Shown here: positions 2,459 to 11,787 of the stretch, piece by piece | Position numbering within the stretch: position 1 is the stretch's first letter | Layout: each line of letters starts with the position of its first letter | Assembly (NCBI GenBank): GCA_030651285.1 | Contig: JAUSCN010000020.1 | Coordinates: 54,106-118,105, forward strand | DNA from: a bacterium | GTDB lineage: Bacteria; Patescibacteriota; Minisyncoccia; Phycocordibacterales; Phycocordibacteraceae | Direction: 5' to 3' | Length of the DNA: 64,000 bases | Notes under the pieces: model-generated | What the model was told of the DNA's origin: nothing | Database searches by the model: none | Seen by the model: the letters and a program-made list of their open reading frames with translations, nothing else | Position numbers and translations under genes: made by a program

Positions 2459-3160
2459 ATGAACAGTTATATGATGACAAGAAAAAATGGATTTGCGCCT
2501 ATCCTAATTTTAGGGATTATCGCCGTCGCATTATTGCTCAGCAGTGGCGGATATATCGCATACAAAAAAACAGGAGGAAGACCCTTTTCGGTAACAGAAC
2601 CTGTAACTCGACAACAAGAGTCTGGGCCTATCAGCGACAAAAATGTAGCTACATCTACCCAGAACTCAACTACTGACTGGCAAACTTATAGAAATGAGAA
2701 GTACGGCTTCGTGCTTCAGTATCCACCCTACTATTCCTTATCTATTAAAGAATACCCTGAAGAGTCTGTGGCAAATCTAGAGATTAAAAACAAAAGATCG
2801 GAAAGCCTTCCAGGAAATTCTTTTTACGTTTACATATGGAAAGATATTTACGATAAAGATTATTGGGATAAGAGGTTTTCTAACAAAGAGATATCATATA
2901 GAGACGGGACAGAGGGAAGCTTCGAGCCCTTAGGTACGACCACTTTTGCCGGAACTGTTGGTGGAATCACTGTAGCGTGCGTAATGGGGGGATGTTCGCG
3001 GACAGTCACTATTCCCAAAAATGGTTTTATTTTTACGGTAGATCTGTCGTCATCGGATGAGGATCCGACTTATATCTTTGGTGAGAATAATATCGCCAGA
3101 AACGAGGAGGCTGTCAAAATTCGAAAACAAATTCTTTCCTCATTTAAATTCACTCGTTAG
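2459..3160 (+). CDS. single-pass secreted/anchored protein of unknown function
   Basis: Not assigned to a named family. The N-terminus MTRKNGFAPILILGIIAVAL is a short basic stretch followed by one hydrophobic helix, a form common in Patescibacteria surface proteins. After a Ser/Thr-rich linker, residues about 80-230 form a soluble domain beginning with YRNEKYGFVLQYPPYYSL, the pattern seen in PsbP-like or related extracytoplasmic domains. Base composition is more AT-rich than in its neighbours. Starts at 2459, 2471 or 2474 are possible and none has an SD. A strong hairpin terminator follows. Confidence 0.6.
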   Translation: MNSYMMTRKNGFAPILILGIIAVALLLSSGGYIAYKKTGGRPFSVTEPVTRQQESGPISDKNVATSTQNSTTDWQTYRNEKYGFVLQYPPYYSLSIKEYPEESVANLEIKNKRSESLPGNSFYVYIWKDIYDKDYWDKRFSNKEISYRDGTEGSFEPLGTTTFAGTVGGITVACVMGGCSRTVTIPKNGFIFTVDLSSSDEDPTYIFGENNIARNEEAVKIRKQILSSFKFTR

Positions 3161-3264: not shown

Positions 3265-4278
3265 ATGAAAATTCATTATTTTTCGGGCGAGTCATGGGAA
3301 GAGGCTTTTGTGCGCGAGAAGCTTACTGGACAAGATATCAGCTTTCACGAAGGACCCCTTTCTGCACTTACTGATCTTACCGACCCAGAAGCAGAAGCTC
3401 TCTGTGTATTTATCGAGTCCCACATCGGCGAAGCAGAACTGAGCCGCTTCCCCAACCTGAAACTCCTCGCCACCCGTTCGACCGGCTTCGACCACATTGA
3501 TCTTGCAGCAGCGAAAGCTCGCGGCATCACGGTCACGAACGTACCCTTCTATGGCGAAAACACCGTCGCAGAATTTGCATTCGCGCTCCTTCTTGCACTG
3601 TCCCGCCGAATCGTAGATGCCGATGAGCGCGTACGCGAGAGTGGCATCTTCTCGCCAACAGGATTACGCGGCTTCGACCTTTCTGGAAAGACGATTGGCG
3701 TTGTTGGTACCGGACACATCGGCGCTCACCTTATCAAGATGGCACAGGGCTTCGGCATGAAGGTTGTCGGATTCGATGCGTTTCCAAATGCCGACCTCGC
3801 ACATACTCTTGGCTTCACCTATCTCCCACTTCCAGAACTCCTCGCTACTGCCGACATCATTTCCCTGCACGTCCCCTACAATGAACATACACATCACCTT
3901 ATTAATAAGGAGAACATTGGCACGATCAAGAAAGGTGCCTACATCATCAATACTGCCCGTGGAGCCGTCCTTGAAACAGAGGCGCTCATTGAAGCACTCA
4001 AGAGCGGGATTATCGCTGGAGCCGGACTCGACGTACTCGAAGAAGAGGGCGAGCTTGCTGATGAGGCAGCATTTCTCACGGCCCCGCACCCGCGCGAAGA
4101 AGAGCTCAAGATCGCGCTTGCAAATCACTACCTCATCAGTCATCCGCGCGTCATCGTGACTCCTCACCTCGCATTTAACACTCAAGAGGCTGTGGAGCGA
4201 ATCCTCAACGCAACGATTGAGAACATTCAGCACTTCGCAGCAGGCTCTCCGACAAACATCGTGAAGATGCCGGTATAA
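3265..4278 (+). CDS. D-isomer-specific 2-hydroxyacid dehydrogenase (D-lactate dehydrogenase-like)
   Basis: An NAD-dependent dehydrogenase of 337 aa that probably interconverts pyruvate and D-lactate, the usual NADH sink in fermentative CPR cells. It shows the Rossmann motif VVGTGHIGAHLIKMAQGFGM (about residues 148-167), the catalytic Arg in NTARGAVL, the acidic partner in GLDVLEEEG and the catalytic His in VTPHLAFNT. The insert AALANHYLISH-type segment before the His loop resembles LdhA-like enzymes more than phosphoglycerate dehydrogenase. The FMN-binding gene starts 8 bp downstream, so both may be in one transcript that disposes of reducing equivalents. Confidence 0.85.
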   Translation: MKIHYFSGESWEEAFVREKLTGQDISFHEGPLSALTDLTDPEAEALCVFIESHIGEAELSRFPNLKLLATRSTGFDHIDLAAAKARGITVTNVPFYGENTVAEFAFALLLALSRRIVDADERVRESGIFSPTGLRGFDLSGKTIGVVGTGHIGAHLIKMAQGFGMKVVGFDAFPNADLAHTLGFTYLPLPELLATADIISLHVPYNEHTHHLINKENIGTIKKGAYIINTARGAVLETEALIEALKSGIIAGAGLDVLEEEGELADEAAFLTAPHPREEELKIALANHYLISHPRVIVTPHLAFNTQEAVERILNATIENIQHFAAGSPTNIVKMPV

Positions 4279-4285
4279 ACGCAAC

Positions 4286-4885
4286 ATGGAGCAGAAGAGA
4301 TCATCCCTCGGCAGCAAGATCGCGCTCTCGCTCGGATTGATTTTTGCATCCACTGTATACGCAGCATGGCAGCAAATCAGTGGGGAGATACATGCTGGTC
4401 CTCAACCAACAAAGGCTGAGATTACTCCTGGGCAGTCGTACAAGGATGCGAACGAAAGACTCCTGGCAACGCTCGCTGAATTAGAGCGATTGGCTGCAGA
4501 GAAAGCGGCGCGCACGGTTATAGCGACACCCGCACCATCGAAACCTCAGACGTCACCGACACCGACACTAAACCCTGCACCCACACCCTCGAGACCTGCA
4601 GGCAAATATGTCGACGGTTCTTACACGGGCGATGCTACGGATGCATATTATGGCACGGTGCAAGTGAAGGTGGCAGTGCGTAACGGACTCATCGCCGACG
4701 TACAGTTCCTTCAGCACCCGGACAGCCGCAGTACATCGCGCTACATCAACGAGCAGGCCATGCCGCTCCTGACTCAAGAGGCGGTTCAGGCCCAGAACGC
4801 ACAGGTAGACGGCGTCTCTGGGGCGACGTTCACGAGCGAAGCATTCAGACAGTCACTCGCATCAGCGCTCATCAAAGCAGCCTAG
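4286..4885 (+). CDS. Membrane-anchored FMN-binding domain protein (predicted ApbE substrate)
   Basis: The 199-aa protein has an N-terminal signal anchor (KIALSLGLIFASTVYA), a Pro/Thr-rich linker at about residues 80-105, and a C-terminal FMN_bind domain starting at KYVDGSYTGDA. The domain ends with DGVSGATFTSEAF, very close to the NqrC/RnfG flavinylation motif; the predicted FMN-carrying residue is Thr183. The domain should face outside the membrane. The NqrB/FNR fusion gene starts 2 bp after its stop, so the two are cotranscribed and presumably partners. No cytochrome or Fe-S motif is present. The call is firm on domain and motif; the electron acceptor is unknown. Confidence 0.88.
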   Translation: MEQKRSSLGSKIALSLGLIFASTVYAAWQQISGEIHAGPQPTKAEITPGQSYKDANERLLATLAELERLAAEKAARTVIATPAPSKPQTSPTPTLNPAPTPSRPAGKYVDGSYTGDATDAYYGTVQVKVAVRNGLIADVQFLQHPDSRSTSRYINEQAMPLLTQEAVQAQNAQVDGVSGATFTSEAFRQSLASALIKAA

Positions 4886-4887
4886 AT

Positions 4888-6402
4888 ATGAATATCGTTG
4901 ATAATTTCCTGAACAAGATCACGATGTATCGCCTCGTGCTGTACTATCTTTTCGGACTCATCGTAGTCGCGACAGTCTTCGGATTCTTTAACATAATCCA
5001 CTACAGCCCAGCGAACCTGGCGTTCTCTACCCTCCTTATCCTCGCGACCTGCTGGGGCACCAACACCCTATTTGCGAAAGTATTCAAAGCAGCTCCGAAT
5101 TCTGAATCAGTGTACATAACCGGCCTGATCCTTGCGCTCATCATGACTCCTGTTGCGCCGGAGAACCATACCGGCATCGGATTCCTGATATTCGCATCGG
5201 TATGGGCGATGGCGTCGAAATACATCTTCGCTCTTGGACACAAACATATTTTCAACCCAGCAGCATTCGCAATCGCTCTTTCAGCGGTCGCCATCAATCA
5301 GTCGGCCACGTGGTGGATCGGCGGCAACCTGCCACTCCTTCCGTTCGTATTCTTCGGCGGACTCCTGATAGTGCGTAAGATCCGCAGATTCGATCTCGTC
5401 GTATCTTTTTCCGTAGTCGCACTCGTCACCATCATCTTCACAACAAGCAACACGAACTTCCTGACCCCAATCACGCAGACACTCCTCAATTCCTCCTTCT
5501 TCTTCCTTGCATTCGTGATGCTCACCGAACCACTCACGATGCCTCCCACAAGAACACTGCGCATCATTTACGGAGCGATCGTCGGGCTTCTGTTTGCACC
5601 GGACATGCACATAGGCTCTTTCTACTTCACGCCCGAACTCGCACTGCTCATAGGTAATGTGTTCGTGTATTTCGTCAGCCCAAAAGGACGATTCCTGCTC
5701 ACGCTACTCGAGAAAAATGAGATCGGGACCGGCACCTACGAATTCGTGTTCGCGCCCAATCGCGCATTCACATTCCGCCCAGGTCAGTACATGGAGTGGA
5801 CGCTCGGACATCGCTTTACCGACGATCGCGGTAATCGCCGCTACTTCACTGTCGCCTCATCCCCGACCGAAGACACGGTACGTCTCGGCGTGAAGTTCTA
5901 TGAACCGGAGAGCACGTTCAAACGAGCACTGAAAGCGATGAAACCGCATGAGACACTTTCGGTCTCGAACCTTGCGGGAGACTTCGTACTTCCAAAAGAC
6001 CCTTCACAGAAACTCGTATTCATCGCTGGCGGTATCGGCGTCACCCCATTCCGCAGCATGGCGCAATACCTGATAGATAAGAAAGAGAATCGCGCGGTCA
6101 CACTCCTTTATTCAAACAAGGTGGCGAGCGAAATCGCCTACAAAGACATATTTGATACCGCCGCCAAAGAAATCGGTATGAGAACTGTATATGCGCTCAC
6201 CGACGAAAAAACCTCGATGCCTGGTGTTCATATAGGCTTAATCGACGCTGCACTTATCATGCGCGAAATTCCCGACTATAAAGAGCGCATCTTTTACATC
6301 TCTGGCCCACACGGCATGGTCACTACATTTACAAAGACGCTGCATGGCATGGGTATTCCTCGTTCTCGCATTGAGACAGACTACTTCCCTGGATTTGCAT
6401 AA
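4888..6402 (+). CDS. NqrB/RnfD-like membrane protein fused to ferredoxin-NAD(P) reductase domain
   Basis: A 504-aa two-part oxidoreductase. Residues 1 to about 265 form many membrane helices of the NqrB/RnfD type, including the conserved stretch FVMLTEPLTMPPTRTLRIIYG (family TDPxTxPxT region). Residues about 270-504 are an FNR module: RRYFTVASSPTE for FAD binding, FIAGGIGVTPFRSM for the nucleotide, and the terminal ISGPHGM and DYFPGF segments. The covalent-FMN SGAT motif of true NqrB/RnfD is not seen, and there is no 2Fe-2S domain as in NqrF. Likely role: to take electrons from NAD(P)H in the cytosol and pass them across the membrane to the flavinylated protein encoded just upstream. Confidence 0.85.
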   Translation: MNIVDNFLNKITMYRLVLYYLFGLIVVATVFGFFNIIHYSPANLAFSTLLILATCWGTNTLFAKVFKAAPNSESVYITGLILALIMTPVAPENHTGIGFLIFASVWAMASKYIFALGHKHIFNPAAFAIALSAVAINQSATWWIGGNLPLLPFVFFGGLLIVRKIRRFDLVVSFSVVALVTIIFTTSNTNFLTPITQTLLNSSFFFLAFVMLTEPLTMPPTRTLRIIYGAIVGLLFAPDMHIGSFYFTPELALLIGNVFVYFVSPKGRFLLTLLEKNEIGTGTYEFVFAPNRAFTFRPGQYMEWTLGHRFTDDRGNRRYFTVASSPTEDTVRLGVKFYEPESTFKRALKAMKPHETLSVSNLAGDFVLPKDPSQKLVFIAGGIGVTPFRSMAQYLIDKKENRAVTLLYSNKVASEIAYKDIFDTAAKEIGMRTVYALTDEKTSMPGVHIGLIDAALIMREIPDYKERIFYISGPHGMVTTFTKTLHGMGIPRSRIETDYFPGFA

Positions 6403-6405
6403 TCT

Positions 6406-7380
6406 ATGCGCTTCAAAAATAATTTGACCAAGACCTTCCCGACCAGACCGCACAAGAATCACAAAAAGCGGAACCATAAGAAAGTTCCAACACGGGCAAC
6501 TCAGCAAAGCTCGCAGGAGCTCCGACCTCGCACCGCAAGCGCCCTCGCGACATTCTGCATCATAAATGCAGCTTGCATGTCCTTCCTGACACAGAACGCC
6601 TTCTATAACCGACCGCCGTACATTCCCTCGAGCGACCAGGCAGCCTACGCTGAAATATCAACAACTTCGGCACAGACTTCGACACCCCTTGACCAATTTG
6701 CCGACAAACTCGACCTACCCATCCTGGTCTACCATATCGTCCGACCCAGCTACCCAGACGACAGCGCATCCGTGCGAGCCATCGCACTTACGCCGGAGAC
6801 ATTTGATGCGCAGATGACCTACCTGAAAGAAAGTGGGTATCACGTAGTCACGTTTACTGATCTTGAGTACTACTATAAAAACAAGAAGCCTCTATCGAGA
6901 AACCCGATCATTCTATCGTTTGATGACGGATGGAAAGATCAATTCCAGTACGCATTCCCTATCCTGAAAAAGCATGGGTACACAGCAACATTCTTCGTAT
7001 TCACCAACTCGATCGATCATAAAAGTTTCTTTTCGCTCGCTCAATTGAAGGAAATGCTTGCTGCCGGCATGATCATCGGGAGTCACTCACGCACTCACCC
7101 CTACCTCACACAGATAACCAACCAGGACGCACTATGGAGAGAAATCAGCGGCAGCAAAAAAATACTCGAAGATCTCCTCGGGGTGCGCATACACGAATTC
7201 GCATATCCGTTCGGCGCATACAACGACACCATCGTAGCGATGGCGAAAAAAGCTGGGTACCGATCCGCTCGTGGAGATTATTTCACCGGAGTCCAGTCGG
7301 CAAACCATCTCTATGAACTGAGCGCTATGAACGCACCCACCACGATGGATCTCTTCAGGAAAAAGTTTCAGCCGAAATAA
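6406..7380 (+). CDS. Polysaccharide deacetylase (NodB domain), exported
   Basis: A carbohydrate esterase 4-type deacetylase that removes acetyl groups from GlcNAc polymers such as peptidoglycan or capsule. The NodB motifs are clear: ILSFDDGW (catalytic Asp and metal Asp), SHSRTHP (metal-binding His pair) and FAYPFGAYND. The 324-aa protein starts with a very basic region, then a hydrophobic segment (ALATFCIINAACMSFL) that probably anchors it in the membrane. It begins 3 bp after the NqrB/FNR fusion, so it shares the transcript, although a functional link to the redox proteins is not obvious. Confidence 0.85.
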   Translation: MRFKNNLTKTFPTRPHKNHKKRNHKKVPTRATQQSSQELRPRTASALATFCIINAACMSFLTQNAFYNRPPYIPSSDQAAYAEISTTSAQTSTPLDQFADKLDLPILVYHIVRPSYPDDSASVRAIALTPETFDAQMTYLKESGYHVVTFTDLEYYYKNKKPLSRNPIILSFDDGWKDQFQYAFPILKKHGYTATFFVFTNSIDHKSFFSLAQLKEMLAAGMIIGSHSRTHPYLTQITNQDALWREISGSKKILEDLLGVRIHEFAYPFGAYNDTIVAMAKKAGYRSARGDYFTGVQSANHLYELSAMNAPTTMDLFRKKFQPK

Positions 7381-7396: not shown

Positions 7397-8920
7397 TTAT
7401 TCCACTCGGAACATGAACATCATTCCTGCCTCGAGATGCTCAGCGATGTGGCAATGAGCCATCCAAACCCCAGGATTTGAAGGTTCGAGGATAATGTCGA
7501 CTATCTCACCTGCTTTGACGAGTACTGTATCCTTCCAGACAAGATTCGTCTGCCTCACTCCGTCACGATACGCGACCAGGAAGCGTTGCCCGTGGAAATG
7601 AATCGGGTGCTGCATCGGATGCATCGATGCTGCCGGATTTTCGATACGGATCTTTATCGGCACATCCCTCTTCAGGGTCCAATCGATATCCATGTTCACC
7701 TTACCCGTGTCTTGGTCGACGATTTTCCACGCGACACCGCCAGCCGACATTTGGTCCATCATGACCGTATCCTCCCACTCAATGCCGCCAGGATTCTGAG
7801 ACATCAGAGGACCACCCATTGCCGACCCGTCCGGCATCATGTGAGACCCATGACCTATGTTCGCTGGCATCATGCCACTGCCAAGCGCGAGCACGAGCTT
7901 CTTGTCAGGTGCCTTTCCGAAATACGTCAGGAAGGCTGCCACACTCTGCTGTACGGCCTTATTTTCCTGCAGTGCGGCGAATTGAGCTGTATATGGCGTC
8001 GCAACTGCGTCTGTCCGCACAACTATTGTTCCGAGCACATACACAGCATTCGGCGTCTTATTCTGCAATTCATATGAACCAGCTTTTTCGAACAGAACAT
8101 CTATGATCGCTCGCTCTGACGGACCGAGTAACACACTCTCTGTGAAAAATGCTTTCTCGTATGCACCATTATCGCCTCCCACGACCTTGATCGTCGCACC
8201 AGGAATCGCCACATTGAATGGCCGTGTCGTCGCGGCATTAACGACATAGAAACGAACCACTTCTCCGGCAGAGGCCTCGAGCGAGAAATGCTCTTCCCCG
8301 TTTGTAAGAAACACGTTTCCATAACGACCCATGAGCGCATGGCTCATGTCGTTCTTGCGCAATGTTATCTTTCCATTCTCAACCGGAATATCGGAAAGGA
8401 ACAGCGGCATTTCCCGATTCACTGGAGGGAAATAATTCGCATCATTCGGAGTCACGACAAACGCACCATAGAGCCCGAGCGGCTGCTCATATGCTTCGTG
8501 TACGTGCGGGTGGTACCAGTAGATTCCGGCATCAGGGAATTTTAGCTTGTAGGAAAAAGATTCTCCGGGCGCGATTTCTTTTTGAGTGACAGGAGGAGCG
8601 CCATCGAACGGATTATCCATGCGCACGCCGTGAGAGTGCAGTGCCGCTGACAAGTCAGTCTCATTCTTGAGATTGATCGTCACTTCTGCGCCCTGCGAAA
8701 CTTTGATCGTCGGCCCGGGGATCGAACCGTTGTATGCGAGCATCTTTTGCGCTTTGCCCGCAACCACCTTAGTGACATAGCTCGCCGTCAGCGCGTAGGT
8801 ATCGCCATCTTTAAGCTCCACGAGCTGCGTATTCTGCACAGTGGGCGAAGTAGTGCCCGCAAGGAGATATATGGCCCCGAGTACCACTATGACCACTACT
8901 GCGTAAAGTATCGTTTTCAT
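7397..8920 (-). CDS. Multicopper oxidase (CueO/laccase-like)
   Basis: A 507-aa three-cupredoxin oxidase that couples oxidation of Cu(I) or organics to reduction of O2. All four copper motifs are present: HSHG (residues 95-98), WYHPHVHE (from 135), HPIHFHG, and HCHIAEHLEAGM near the C-terminus with the T1 Cys and axial Met. A Met-rich insert (SGMMPANIGHGSHMMPDG) resembles the copper-sensing loop of CueO. A single N-terminal hydrophobic helix exports or anchors it. It is convergent with the deacetylase and lies downstream of the copper ATPase block, which fits copper detoxification. A TATACT box lies 10 nt before the ATG. Confidence 0.92.
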   Translation of the reverse strand: MKTILYAVVVIVVLGAIYLLAGTTSPTVQNTQLVELKDGDTYALTASYVTKVVAGKAQKMLAYNGSIPGPTIKVSQGAEVTINLKNETDLSAALHSHGVRMDNPFDGAPPVTQKEIAPGESFSYKLKFPDAGIYWYHPHVHEAYEQPLGLYGAFVVTPNDANYFPPVNREMPLFLSDIPVENGKITLRKNDMSHALMGRYGNVFLTNGEEHFSLEASAGEVVRFYVVNAATTRPFNVAIPGATIKVVGGDNGAYEKAFFTESVLLGPSERAIIDVLFEKAGSYELQNKTPNAVYVLGTIVVRTDAVATPYTAQFAALQENKAVQQSVAAFLTYFGKAPDKKLVLALGSGMMPANIGHGSHMMPDGSAMGGPLMSQNPGGIEWEDTVMMDQMSAGGVAWKIVDQDTGKVNMDIDWTLKRDVPIKIRIENPAASMHPMQHPIHFHGQRFLVAYRDGVRQTNLVWKDTVLVKAGEIVDIILEPSNPGVWMAHCHIAEHLEAGMMFMFRVE

Positions 8921-9002
8921 ACGTTTCGAAAGTATATCAAAATCCTGCCAGAGGCAGTATTAGAAATATGGCACTCATCATGTTTGTGAAAGAGTCAAGC
9001 TT

Positions 9003-9641
9003 CTATGGAGTAACCGTATGCCCTGTGCCCGTTCGAATTTGAGCGAACACGATGACGCTTAAGATCGCCGCGAAGAAACACCATACGGAGAAAAATGTTT
9101 CGGTATAGAACCAGCCCGCGACGAGAAAGGCGACGAATATTGCCGCGCCGAGTATGCGCACGATTCTATGGCTCGATACGAAACAGCTCCCGCATGTAGC
9201 GAACAAGTAGAGAATTAAGGAGACGGTCGGATATAAGTGTGGCGAACCGTACGCGATACTGTGATTCACGATACTGGAAGTAACTGGCTCAACAATAATT
9301 GAATACAAAAGATACAGCCCTGTAAGCAGTCCAACGGCTATAAAACCGCGCAAGATTTTCCGGTGAGCAGGATCGGTTTCCATCACAAACACGGAAATCG
9401 GCAGAAAAATTGGCCATAACACATGCGAGAAAAGCGAGTAGGCGTATGTCATAACAGCATTCAGCGACGCTGATCCGAATGATAGCCAAATAACCCCTTC
9501 TATAGTTTGCTGCACTCCAAATAACAGAGGTATTGCGGCAAATGGAATTTCTTTTTTACTCTTTGCCTTAGAAAGCGTCACAGCCCCCGTAGCTGAAAGC
9601 GCTCCGCCCGCTATAAAACTAGCTGTTGCAGAAAAACACAT
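9003..9641 (-). CDS. DUF6629 family integral membrane protein
   Basis: A 212-aa membrane protein with about seven helices. The start MCFSATASFIAGGALSATGAVTL and the segment FAAIPLLFGVQQTIEGVIW match the DUF6629 pattern; its function is not known. The track starts it at a TTG at 9647; the ATG at 9641, two codons in, is more likely. It begins right after the copper ATPase stop, so it belongs to the same transcript and may serve metal or redox homeostasis. Confidence 0.7.
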   Translation of the reverse strand: MCFSATASFIAGGALSATGAVTLSKAKSKKEIPFAAIPLLFGVQQTIEGVIWLSFGSASLNAVMTYAYSLFSHVLWPIFLPISVFVMETDPAHRKILRGFIAVGLLTGLYLLYSIIVEPVTSSIVNHSIAYGSPHLYPTVSLILYLFATCGSCFVSSHRIVRILGAAIFVAFLVAGWFYTETFFSVWCFFAAILSVIVFAQIRTGTGHTVTP

Positions 9642-9643
9642 AT

Positions 9644-11731
9644 TCAATCTTGATTTAAGTGCGCCTCAACCCGCCGTAATGAGACTGCATTGACCGCAAC
9701 GATGATGGATGAAGCGGACATAAGCAGTGCAGAAATTTCAGGCCGAAGCGACCATCCAAGCGACGAATAGAATGCGCCCGCAGCAACAGGGATCGCGAGC
9801 ACGTTGTAGATAGCAGCCCAGAAGAGATTCTGTTTCATCTTAGTGACCGTCGCCTTACTCAGACGGAGTGCCGCTACGATGTCGTATGGATCTGATTTCA
9901 TAAGCACGATATTGCCCGTCTCGATGGCCACGTCCGTCCCGGCACCGATAGCAATACCGATGTCTGCCCGCGCAAGCGCAGGAGCATCGTTTATACCGTC
10001 GCCCACCATCGCTACGAACTCCCCTTCATCTTGGAGCTTCTTCACATAGTTCGACTTCTCTTCTGGAAGCACTTCTGCAAAATAATGCTCGATGCCGAGC
10101 TGGCCCGCAACTGTCTTCGCGACCTGTTCATGATCGCCTGTGATCATGAACACCTTAAGTCCCATCTCCTTAAGTTTTGCTACAGCTCTCTTCGCGGAAT
10201 CGCGCACCGTATCTGCGACACCGATGACTCCTACAACTTTTCCATCGATCGCGACGATGCTAATGGTATTTCCGGTAGCCAGAAGACGGTCTATCTCATT
10301 TTTGAGTGGAGAAAGATCGATATTATTTTGAGCCATGAGCCGCTCGGTCCCTGCGATCACGGTCTTTCCATCGACCAGGGCACGGACGCCGTGCCCGCCG
10401 ATCGATTCGAATTTCTCTACTTTCTTCTCAAACGAAACATCCCTCCCTTTAGACTCTTCGATGATAGCGAGACTGATCGGGTGATTTGAATTCCGCTCGA
10501 CAGCAGAGGCATAGGCGAGCACCTCTTCCGCACTGTGGGAGGACCCCGAAACCACTTCGGTCACTTTCGGTTTCCCCTCGGTAAGCGTCCCGGTCTTGTC
10601 GAGCACGATCGCAGTTAGTTTTGATGTGTTTTCGAGTGTTGCGGCGTCTTTTATGAGTATGTTGTGCTTCGCGCCGAGCCCGGTACCCACAGCTACCGCA
10701 GTCGGCGTCGCGAGACCAAGCGCATCAGGACACGCGATGACGACCGTTGAAATAGCAAACGTAAGGGCGGCCACAAATGTTGCGCCTGCAAACACGTACC
10801 ATCCTAAAAATGCGAGAACACCAGAACCGACTGCAAGCACTACGAGCCATGCGGCAGCCTTATCCGCAATGCGCTGTCCTGGGGCTTTTGAGTTCTGTGC
10901 CGTCTCCACCATCTGGATAATCTGCGCGAGCACAGTATCGGCACCGACTTTCATCGCTTTAAAAGTGAGCGTTCCGGTCTGATTCACCGAACCACCTATG
11001 ACGCTTGCTCCAACAGCTTTTATGACAGGAATTGATTCGCCTGTGATGACCGACTCATCTACCGAGCTCTCACCCTCGACGATTTCTCCGTCGACCGGAA
11101 CTTTATCTCCAGGACGCAATACGACGATATCGCCCTGCAGTATTTCCGCACTCGGGATGATCATTTCCTTTCCATTTCTAACGACACGAGCTTGTGGCGG
11201 CACGAGATCGAAAAGCGCATGCAGCGCATCAGACGTGCCGCGCCTTGATTTCATTTCCATCCAGTGCCCGAAGAGCACGAAGGTCACGAGCATTGCAGCT
11301 GCTTCGTAGAACGCATCGCCACCGCCACTGAAAGCGAGTGCGATGCTGCCCAGATATGCGGCCAGCACTCCGGTCGCAATAAGCACTGCCATATTGAGCT
11401 TACGAGCTAAGAGCGAGTAGTAGGTGCCAGTGATGAAGATCGATCCAGTCCAGAACACAATTGGTGTCGTCAGAATGAAAAGGAGCAGATTCTTTGGAAT
11501 CGGAGATGGGAGTGATATGCCGAAAAGCATCTCTCCCATAGTCGAGTAGAGGACAATAGGAATGGTGAGCGCCAGTGATATGAAAAACCGCTTTCGCATA
11601 TCCCGCTCCATCTCTTCTGCCATCTGCGGATTGGTCATCGCCGCTTCGTGATCCATGTGACTCATGTGAGACATCACATCATGGCCCGCATGCTCATGAT
11701 GCCCCTCCCCGGCATGGTGATGGTGATTCAT
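9644..11731 (-). CDS. Copper-translocating P1B-type ATPase (CopB-like) with CPD motif
   Basis: A 695-aa heavy-metal P-type ATPase for copper or silver export. It has a His/Met-rich N-terminus ([24 protein letters not shown]) in place of a CxxC metal domain, as in CopB. It also shows [15 protein letters not shown] (phosphorylation Asp), the NHPI and GHGVRA nucleotide motifs, [12 protein letters not shown] and about eight helices. The metal-site motif in helix 6 reads [11 protein letters not shown], so the usual CPC or CPH is CPD. ATG 11731 is preferred over 11749 because TATCAT sits exactly 6 nt upstream, which predicts a leaderless mRNA. The DUF6629 gene follows directly. Confidence 0.92.
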
Positions 11732-11787
11732 GACACCATGATACCCCACAATGCATTTACACGACTTTCCTAATCAGAGACCTCAGT

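Follow-up and report, generated by a model that had tools for sequence, protein, structure and literature searches.

Patescibacteria are thought to be fermentative, with tiny genomes and no respiratory chain. The window considered here, a 64,000-nucleotide stretch of a patescibacterial contig, contains two adjacent genes (4286–4885 and 4888–6402, both on the + strand) whose products are homologous to subunits of redox complexes. The initial annotation read the two genes as a compact conduit leading from NAD(P)H via FAD and the membrane to covalently bound FMN on the outside. As a proposal this path is well supported, and it agrees with the systems described in PMC8238504 and PMC11334425. We consider it likely that the pair is an NQR/RNF-like flavinylated transmembrane electron-transfer system, which would act as a non-pumping sink for NAD(P)H and supplement the formation of D-lactate. 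The domains, motifs, topology signals, gene linkage and absence of Rnf-Nqr partners described below were obtained from sequences or predicted models.

The genes around the pair occupy approximately the first 12 kb of the window. On the − strand are a gene for an ABC transporter membrane protein (1–1077) and apbE (1085–1825), which encodes a short form of FAD:protein FMN transferase of 246 amino acids (PF02424). Divergent from apbE is a gene for a DoxX/DoxD-type membrane protein (1892–2431, +); such a protein is also found near the fusion in relatives L003, L004, L007, L019, L039, L079 and L128. It is followed on the + strand by an anchored protein without family assignment (2459–3160), a D-isomer specific, NAD-dependent 2-hydroxyacid dehydrogenase of the D-lactate type (3265–4278; PF02826, 194 bits; PF00389, 99 bits), the FMN_bind subunit, the NqrB/RnfD-FNR fusion and a polysaccharide deacetylase (6406–7380). 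The − strand then carries a CopA/CueO-like multicopper oxidase (7397–8920), a DUF6629 membrane protein and a Cu-type P-ATPase (9644–11749) whose N-terminus is rich in His; the oxidase and the ATPase are likely to be a copper resistance pair. The two open reading frames were correctly placed in the initial annotation and are separated by 2 bp; the D-lactate-type dehydrogenase does lie directly upstream, ending 7 bp before FMN_bind, and apbE, said to be 2.5 kb away, is 2.46 kb upstream of it. From the dehydrogenase through FMN_bind and the fusion to the deacetylase, consecutive genes lie 7, 2 and 3 bp apart, and co-transcription of all four is therefore likely. The dehydrogenase matched no NCBIfam equivalog at its cut-off.

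The FMN_bind protein (4286–4885) is NqrC/RnfG-like and was identified in a Pfam profile search by a match to PF04205 (44.8 bits, cut-off 22, E 2e-11). It has a hydrophobic N-terminus, predicted to form a single helix (residues 8–32), and a Pro/Ala-rich linker that precedes the FMN_bind domain (residues 111–198). This domain contains the D-x-x-[S/T]-G-A-[S/T] motif of ApbE substrates in the form D175-G-V-S-G-A-T181-F-T-S184, in which the NqrC-like SGATFTS site noted initially is residues 178–184. SGA[TS] is invariant in the aligned FMN_bind homologues (28/28). In this motif FMN is attached to the last residue (PMC12052999), and the predicted acceptor is therefore Thr181; the initial choice of Thr183 was off by two. 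The closest solved match is the covalent-FMN domain 8p2a, both by sequence (E 8.6e-14) and by Foldseek using the predicted model (1.5e-05; 40% identity over 88 columns). The N-terminal helix includes VYA-A, which could be a signal peptidase site, but the continuous 25-residue helix in the model favours an anchor over a cleaved signal. There is no Cys in this protein and one in the fusion, and neither protein of the pair has a CxxCH haem motif. A second, shorter anchored FMN_bind protein is encoded near the main one in three relatives (L015:1469–1897, L019:5251–5652 and L069:6180–6617), where it may extend the chain outwards.

The fusion (4888–6402) is 504 residues long, and consists of a 10-helix NqrB/RnfD-like domain (approximately 13–263) followed by a FAD/NAD(P)H domain of the ferredoxin-reductase type (approximately 268–504). 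It matches PF03116 (NQR2_RnfD_RnfE) with 49.9 bits (cut-off 27.7, E 3.7e-13), mainly over the C-terminal part of the membrane domain (157–262), and PF00175 (NAD_binding_1) with 52.2 bits (cut-off 22, E 1.1e-13). The fusion of an NqrB/RnfD-like domain to FNR is thus as annotated, and all three profiles that had been suggested as a check (FMN_bind, NQR2_RnfD_RnfE and NAD_binding_1) scored above their cut-offs. The membrane-domain profile also matches RnfD from a solved RNF complex (8ahx_D, E 4.7e-05). The AlphaFold model (mean pLDDT 87.9, pTM 0.81) has a membrane bundle and then an FNR fold; its C-terminal half resembles NqrF, flavohaemoglobin reductase and related reductase folds, and the top 50 matches in a fold search were all FNR-type. 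Chance similarity is ruled out by the existence of full-length (504-residue) relatives with 50–75% identity among the best 80 of 228 loci. The covalent-flavin motif [ST]GA[ST] is absent from the whole fusion, which was correctly described as lacking NqrB's own SGAT site, and from 39/40 aligned relatives, the sole exception lying in the FNR part.

The source genome comprises 30 contigs and is 96.7% complete; contamination is estimated at 5.3%, and a single absence from this genome is not proof. It encodes one ApbE and one FMN_bind protein. The RnfA/E-NqrD/E family (PF02508) had no match anywhere in the genome, while the control profile was detected in E. coli and others. The pair therefore has no Rnf or Nqr partners, as first suggested, and is unlikely to be a pump of the Rnf or Nqr type. 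Neither COX1 nor cytochrome bd oxidase was found in the genome, which is in keeping with a fermentative cell, and a respiratory terminal oxidase was rejected as a partner.

Systems of this kind are already known. NQR/RNF-like systems were defined in 127 genomes, mainly of Actinobacteria and CPR, by an N-terminal PF03116 and a C-terminal PF00175 domain, with an FMN_bind or ApbE gene within five genes (Meheust 2021, eLife, PMC8238504). A two-subunit form in which the Thr of NqrB/RnfD is missing was described, with a one-way model, in Huang 2024 (mSystems, PMC11334425). The window locus shares all these features: PF03116 and PF00175 are fused and above their cut-offs, FMN_bind is adjacent, ApbE is 2.5 kb away, and the membrane domain lacks the flavinylated Thr of NqrB/RnfD. 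Another feature of the systems of Meheust 2021 is a signal peptide or lipidation predicted for FMN_bind or ApbE; in the window, FMN_bind has its hydrophobic N-terminus and modelled helix (8–32), while ApbE has no signal. Judged by its sequence, the pair belongs to this described kind, reported mainly from Actinobacteria and CPR. The novelty initially claimed for the conduit does not hold, since the fusion, the two-gene form, the occurrence in CPR and the lost NqrB Thr all appear in the available text of PMC8238504 and PMC11334425. What we add, and did not find in that text, is the ApbE without signal, the relatives without FMN_bind or linked to cupredoxins, and the loop signature.

We then analysed the distribution of the system. 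When species genomes were scanned for the fusion, 228 encoded relatives were recovered. The best 80 of these are full length, with 50–75% identity, and come mostly from Patescibacteria and in some cases from Chloroflexota. FMN_bind is present at 75 of these best 80 loci and ApbE at 62, and the usual gene order is FMN_bind-apbE-fusion. In the lineage of the window (Kaiserbacteria and kin) apbE is displaced from the pair; at the window locus it is not only distant but reversed, and a D-2-hydroxyacid dehydrogenase gene abuts the pair, unlike the usual locus. The two-gene form seen initially is therefore correct for this locus but is not a general trait, because apbE lies between the two genes in most relatives. 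The dehydrogenase gene is upstream of FMN_bind in 12 of the nearest loci (L003–L008, L010–L014 and L017), directly so in six, and is a probable operon partner of the pair in near relatives only. Clustering of the neighbours at the best 80 of 228 loci gave no regulator or transporter as a constant neighbour, and no terminal reductase or other oxidoreductase recurrently linked to the pair. A conserved link to the copper genes at 7397–11749 was rejected, there being no multicopper oxidase and only 11 ATPases at these 80 loci.

Co-occurrence with apbE, which the initial annotation had suggested surveying, was analysed in 380 evenly sampled patescibacterial genomes. The fusion occurs in 64, ApbE in 83 and both in 44. 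ApbE is thus present in 44/64 genomes with the fusion and in 39/316 others (odds ratio 15.6, Fisher p 1.3e-19, with related genomes treated as independent). Twenty genomes with the fusion have no ApbE match, although ApbE or FMN_bind may be missed at contig ends or if highly divergent. Of these, 18/20 also lack FMN_bind beside the fusion, and in one of the two exceptions, which keep FMN_bind, a fragment of ApbE is found where a contig ends. The FMN_bind subunit and ApbE are therefore gained or lost together, which supports their joint work on the system. In a tree built from 99 fusions, the presence of FMN_bind requires 6 changes, compared to 19.2 for shuffled labels; fusions without FMN_bind mostly branch deep in this quick tree, whose midpoint root does not distinguish gain from loss.

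Comparison of 78 fusions that have FMN_bind with 14 deep-branching fusions that do not identified eight positions that are conserved only in the former and dispersed in the latter. Four of these (P238, H241, G243 and Y246) are within a single nine-residue loop between helices 9 and 10, P238–Y246 (codons at 5599–5625, + strand), as located by the predicted model and the conservation comparison. The helix count and the positive-inside loop RKIRR (163–168) suggest that residues 238–246 are extracytosolic. Being probably outside, and conserved in dependence on FMN_bind, this loop is the best candidate for a dock and is likely, on sequence and model, to be the docking site of the FMN_bind subunit. 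Tight contact of the two subunits has been modelled independently (Huang 2024, PMC11334425).

A small cupredoxin is encoded within 1.5 kb of the fusion at 6/23 loci without FMN_bind, and within 1.7 kb at 2/77 loci with it (Fisher p 0.0017, with related loci treated as independent). The six (L117:6033–6545, L127:3444–3953, L123:8870–9310, L118:8321–8806, L120:7723–8130 and L121:5633–6058) belong to Cupredoxin_1/Copper-bind; five have an anchor-like N-terminus and one is lipoprotein-like. In L117 and L127 the gene immediately precedes the fusion and shares its strand, while two others are convergent neighbours of the fusion, which is weak evidence of linkage. These sequences suggest that in some lineages the outer carrier may be exchangeable, from flavin to cupredoxin. 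A related and possible reading is that NqrB/FNR is a general transmembrane module driven by NAD(P)H, with exchangeable outer carriers, mostly flavin and in some cases cupredoxin. At L114, L122, L125 and similar loci, NqrB/FNR genes have neither FMN_bind nor an obvious carrier alongside.

From these data we infer flavinylation, direction, acceptor, docking site and lack of ion pumping as follows. NAD(P)H from fermentation would reduce the FAD of the FNR domain, on the cytosolic side, and electrons would cross the bilayer via one or more flavins held non-covalently in the NqrB/RnfD-like helices. They would pass to an FMN that ApbE had joined to Thr181 by a phosphoester bond; the FMN_bind subunit that carries this FMN, anchored in the membrane, would dock on the outer loop formed by residues P238–Y246. 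The FMN_bind domain, on its flexible linker, would then hand electrons to a diffusible extracytosolic acceptor. The conduit would be one-way, with the 2-hydroxyacid dehydrogenase next door competing for, or supplying, NADH; a dehydrogenase in this position fits a redox valve.

The same conduit could have reductive metal assimilation as its main job, with FMN serving as an extracellular reductant of Fe(III) or Cu(II), either to take the metal up or to detoxify it. The multicopper oxidase and Cu-type P-ATPase that follow the pair in the window would fit this, as would the metal P-ATPases at 11 of the best 80 of 228 loci, where Nramp is also found in some, and the ferrous transporter VIT1 carried by six NQR/RNF-like clusters (PMC8238504). 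However, those ATPases are mostly distant and on either strand, none of the 80 loci has a multicopper oxidase, and no iron transporter adjoins the pair at the window locus; we therefore regard this as unlikely. A rather improbable alternative is that electrons flow inward, with NAD(P)H formed at the expense of a donor outside the cell, or that the pair couples to a dedicated extracytosolic reductase or oxidase. In other bacteria, flavin carriers do feed fumarate-reductase-like enzymes, but the best 80 of 228 loci show no oxidoreductase as a recurrent neighbour of the pair, and the 2-hydroxyacid dehydrogenase, a cytosolic enzyme, accompanies it only in the nearest relatives. The sequence does not give the direction of flow, and reversal is possible in principle according to Meheust 2021 (PMC8238504). 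Finally, a vestigial Rnf or Nqr, a cut-down redox pump that still moves ions, is very improbable: NqrB/RnfD, to which the membrane subunit is homologous, are components of ion pumps, but with PF02508 absent from the genome there is no return path for electrons, and the fusion lacks the covalent flavin motif of these proteins.

Three observations count against an outward, non-pumping flavinylated conduit. No terminal reductase is conserved beside the pair; the NqrB match is mainly to the C-terminal part of the membrane domain, with nothing but FNR-type folds among the top 50 of the fold search; and ApbE, whose substrate domain should lie outside, has no export signal. The window ApbE is clearly identified (PF02424, 146.2 bits, cut-off 25.6, E 1.7e-42; solved ApbEs, E 4e-23), and when aligned with E. 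coli-type ApbE it keeps the catalytic Ser/His/Asp motifs (TSGSY 164, HIYNP 173 and LEADR 198). Its N-terminus, MKKVRLIMGMPIEIEI, starts at, or about 7 residues ahead of, the first conserved motif MGMPI (MKKVRLIMGMPI), and the open frame could extend it upstream by no more than about 12 residues. Neither the start position nor the N-terminal hydropathy points to a signal peptide or lipobox. The operonic ApbEs of the family, including those of Chloroflexota, start in the same way, and the mean of their best 17-residue hydropathy window at the N-terminus is 0.97, compared to 2.04 for the FMN_bind proteins. The operonic ApbEs (L009–L082) are also shortened, missing PF02424 positions of approximately 75–124 but retaining the catalytic motifs. 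The lack of a signal as a special mark of the operon is weakened by 30 other patescibacterial ApbEs that also seem to have none.

Exported ApbEs act on exported targets, while in Klebsiella an ApbE and the fumarate reductase that it serves are both cytosolic (PMC12052999). The window locus is a mismatch, pairing a signal-less ApbE with a substrate that bears the N-terminal helix of NqrC/RnfG. Tat export of a folded, already flavinylated protein was rejected as an explanation, since TatC was not found in the source genome and is present in 9/64 (absent from 55/64) of the sampled patescibacterial genomes with the fusion; the FMN_bind N-termini have no consistent twin-arginine motif. The FMN may be added before the subunit passes through Sec or while it does so, ApbE may be exported without a leader, or FMN_bind may have an inverted topology; the first of these is the most likely. 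In its specific form, in which the cytosolic, shortened ApbE flavinylates the FMN_bind subunit inside the cell and Sec then exports the product, we hold it only tentatively and with some doubt. FAD synthase of the RibF type (PF06574) was not found in the source genome and gave one strong match in the 380 patescibacterial genomes, from which it follows that FAD is probably imported, though a non-RibF enzyme may make it. Many of these genomes encode flavoproteins (ApbE, FNR) despite this near absence.

Like Na+-NQR and RNF, the pair has a homologous NqrB/RnfD membrane domain, an NqrC/RnfG-like FMN_bind subunit and an NqrF-like FAD/NAD domain. Unlike them, it has no NqrD/E or RnfA/E in the genome and no Fe-S ferredoxin domain, its NqrB part is without a covalent flavin motif, and a single one-way path is expected. 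In Listeria, flavin-based extracellular electron transfer uses Ndh2, EetA/B, FmnB and PplA, with FmnB working outside the cytosol. The proposed working of the window pair is similar, in that FMN would be covalently held outside the membrane and reduced from cytosolic NADH; however, the proteins are different, there is no quinone step, and the window ApbE is signal-less whereas FmnB is outside the cytosol. The closest solved FMN_bind domain to the window subunit comes from the multi-flavinylated proteins SaFMN3/CbFMN4, which have three or four FMN domains in a row (PMC10339131; PDB 8p2a, 8p2b), whereas the window subunit has one, on a transmembrane anchor. A 2025 survey of CPR from acid mine drainage proposed that iron is reduced by a flavin-based route, judging by FmnB, Ndh2 and Dmk genes that occur there in the absence of PplA/Eet (PMC12153355), and NQR/RNF-like systems could form part of what was seen there.

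The locus is a compact test case for a named class, and it poses a testable question: can Sec carry a protein that is already flavinylated, or is there an unrecognised route by which ApbE gets out of the cell? Flavinylation before export, if true, would break the rule that exported ApbE modifies exported flavoproteins outside, and would remove the need for FAD export in cells that are apparently unable to make FAD. For Patescibacteria, a two-protein route that takes electrons from NAD(P)H outwards would provide both a redox valve and a means of interacting with hosts or minerals.
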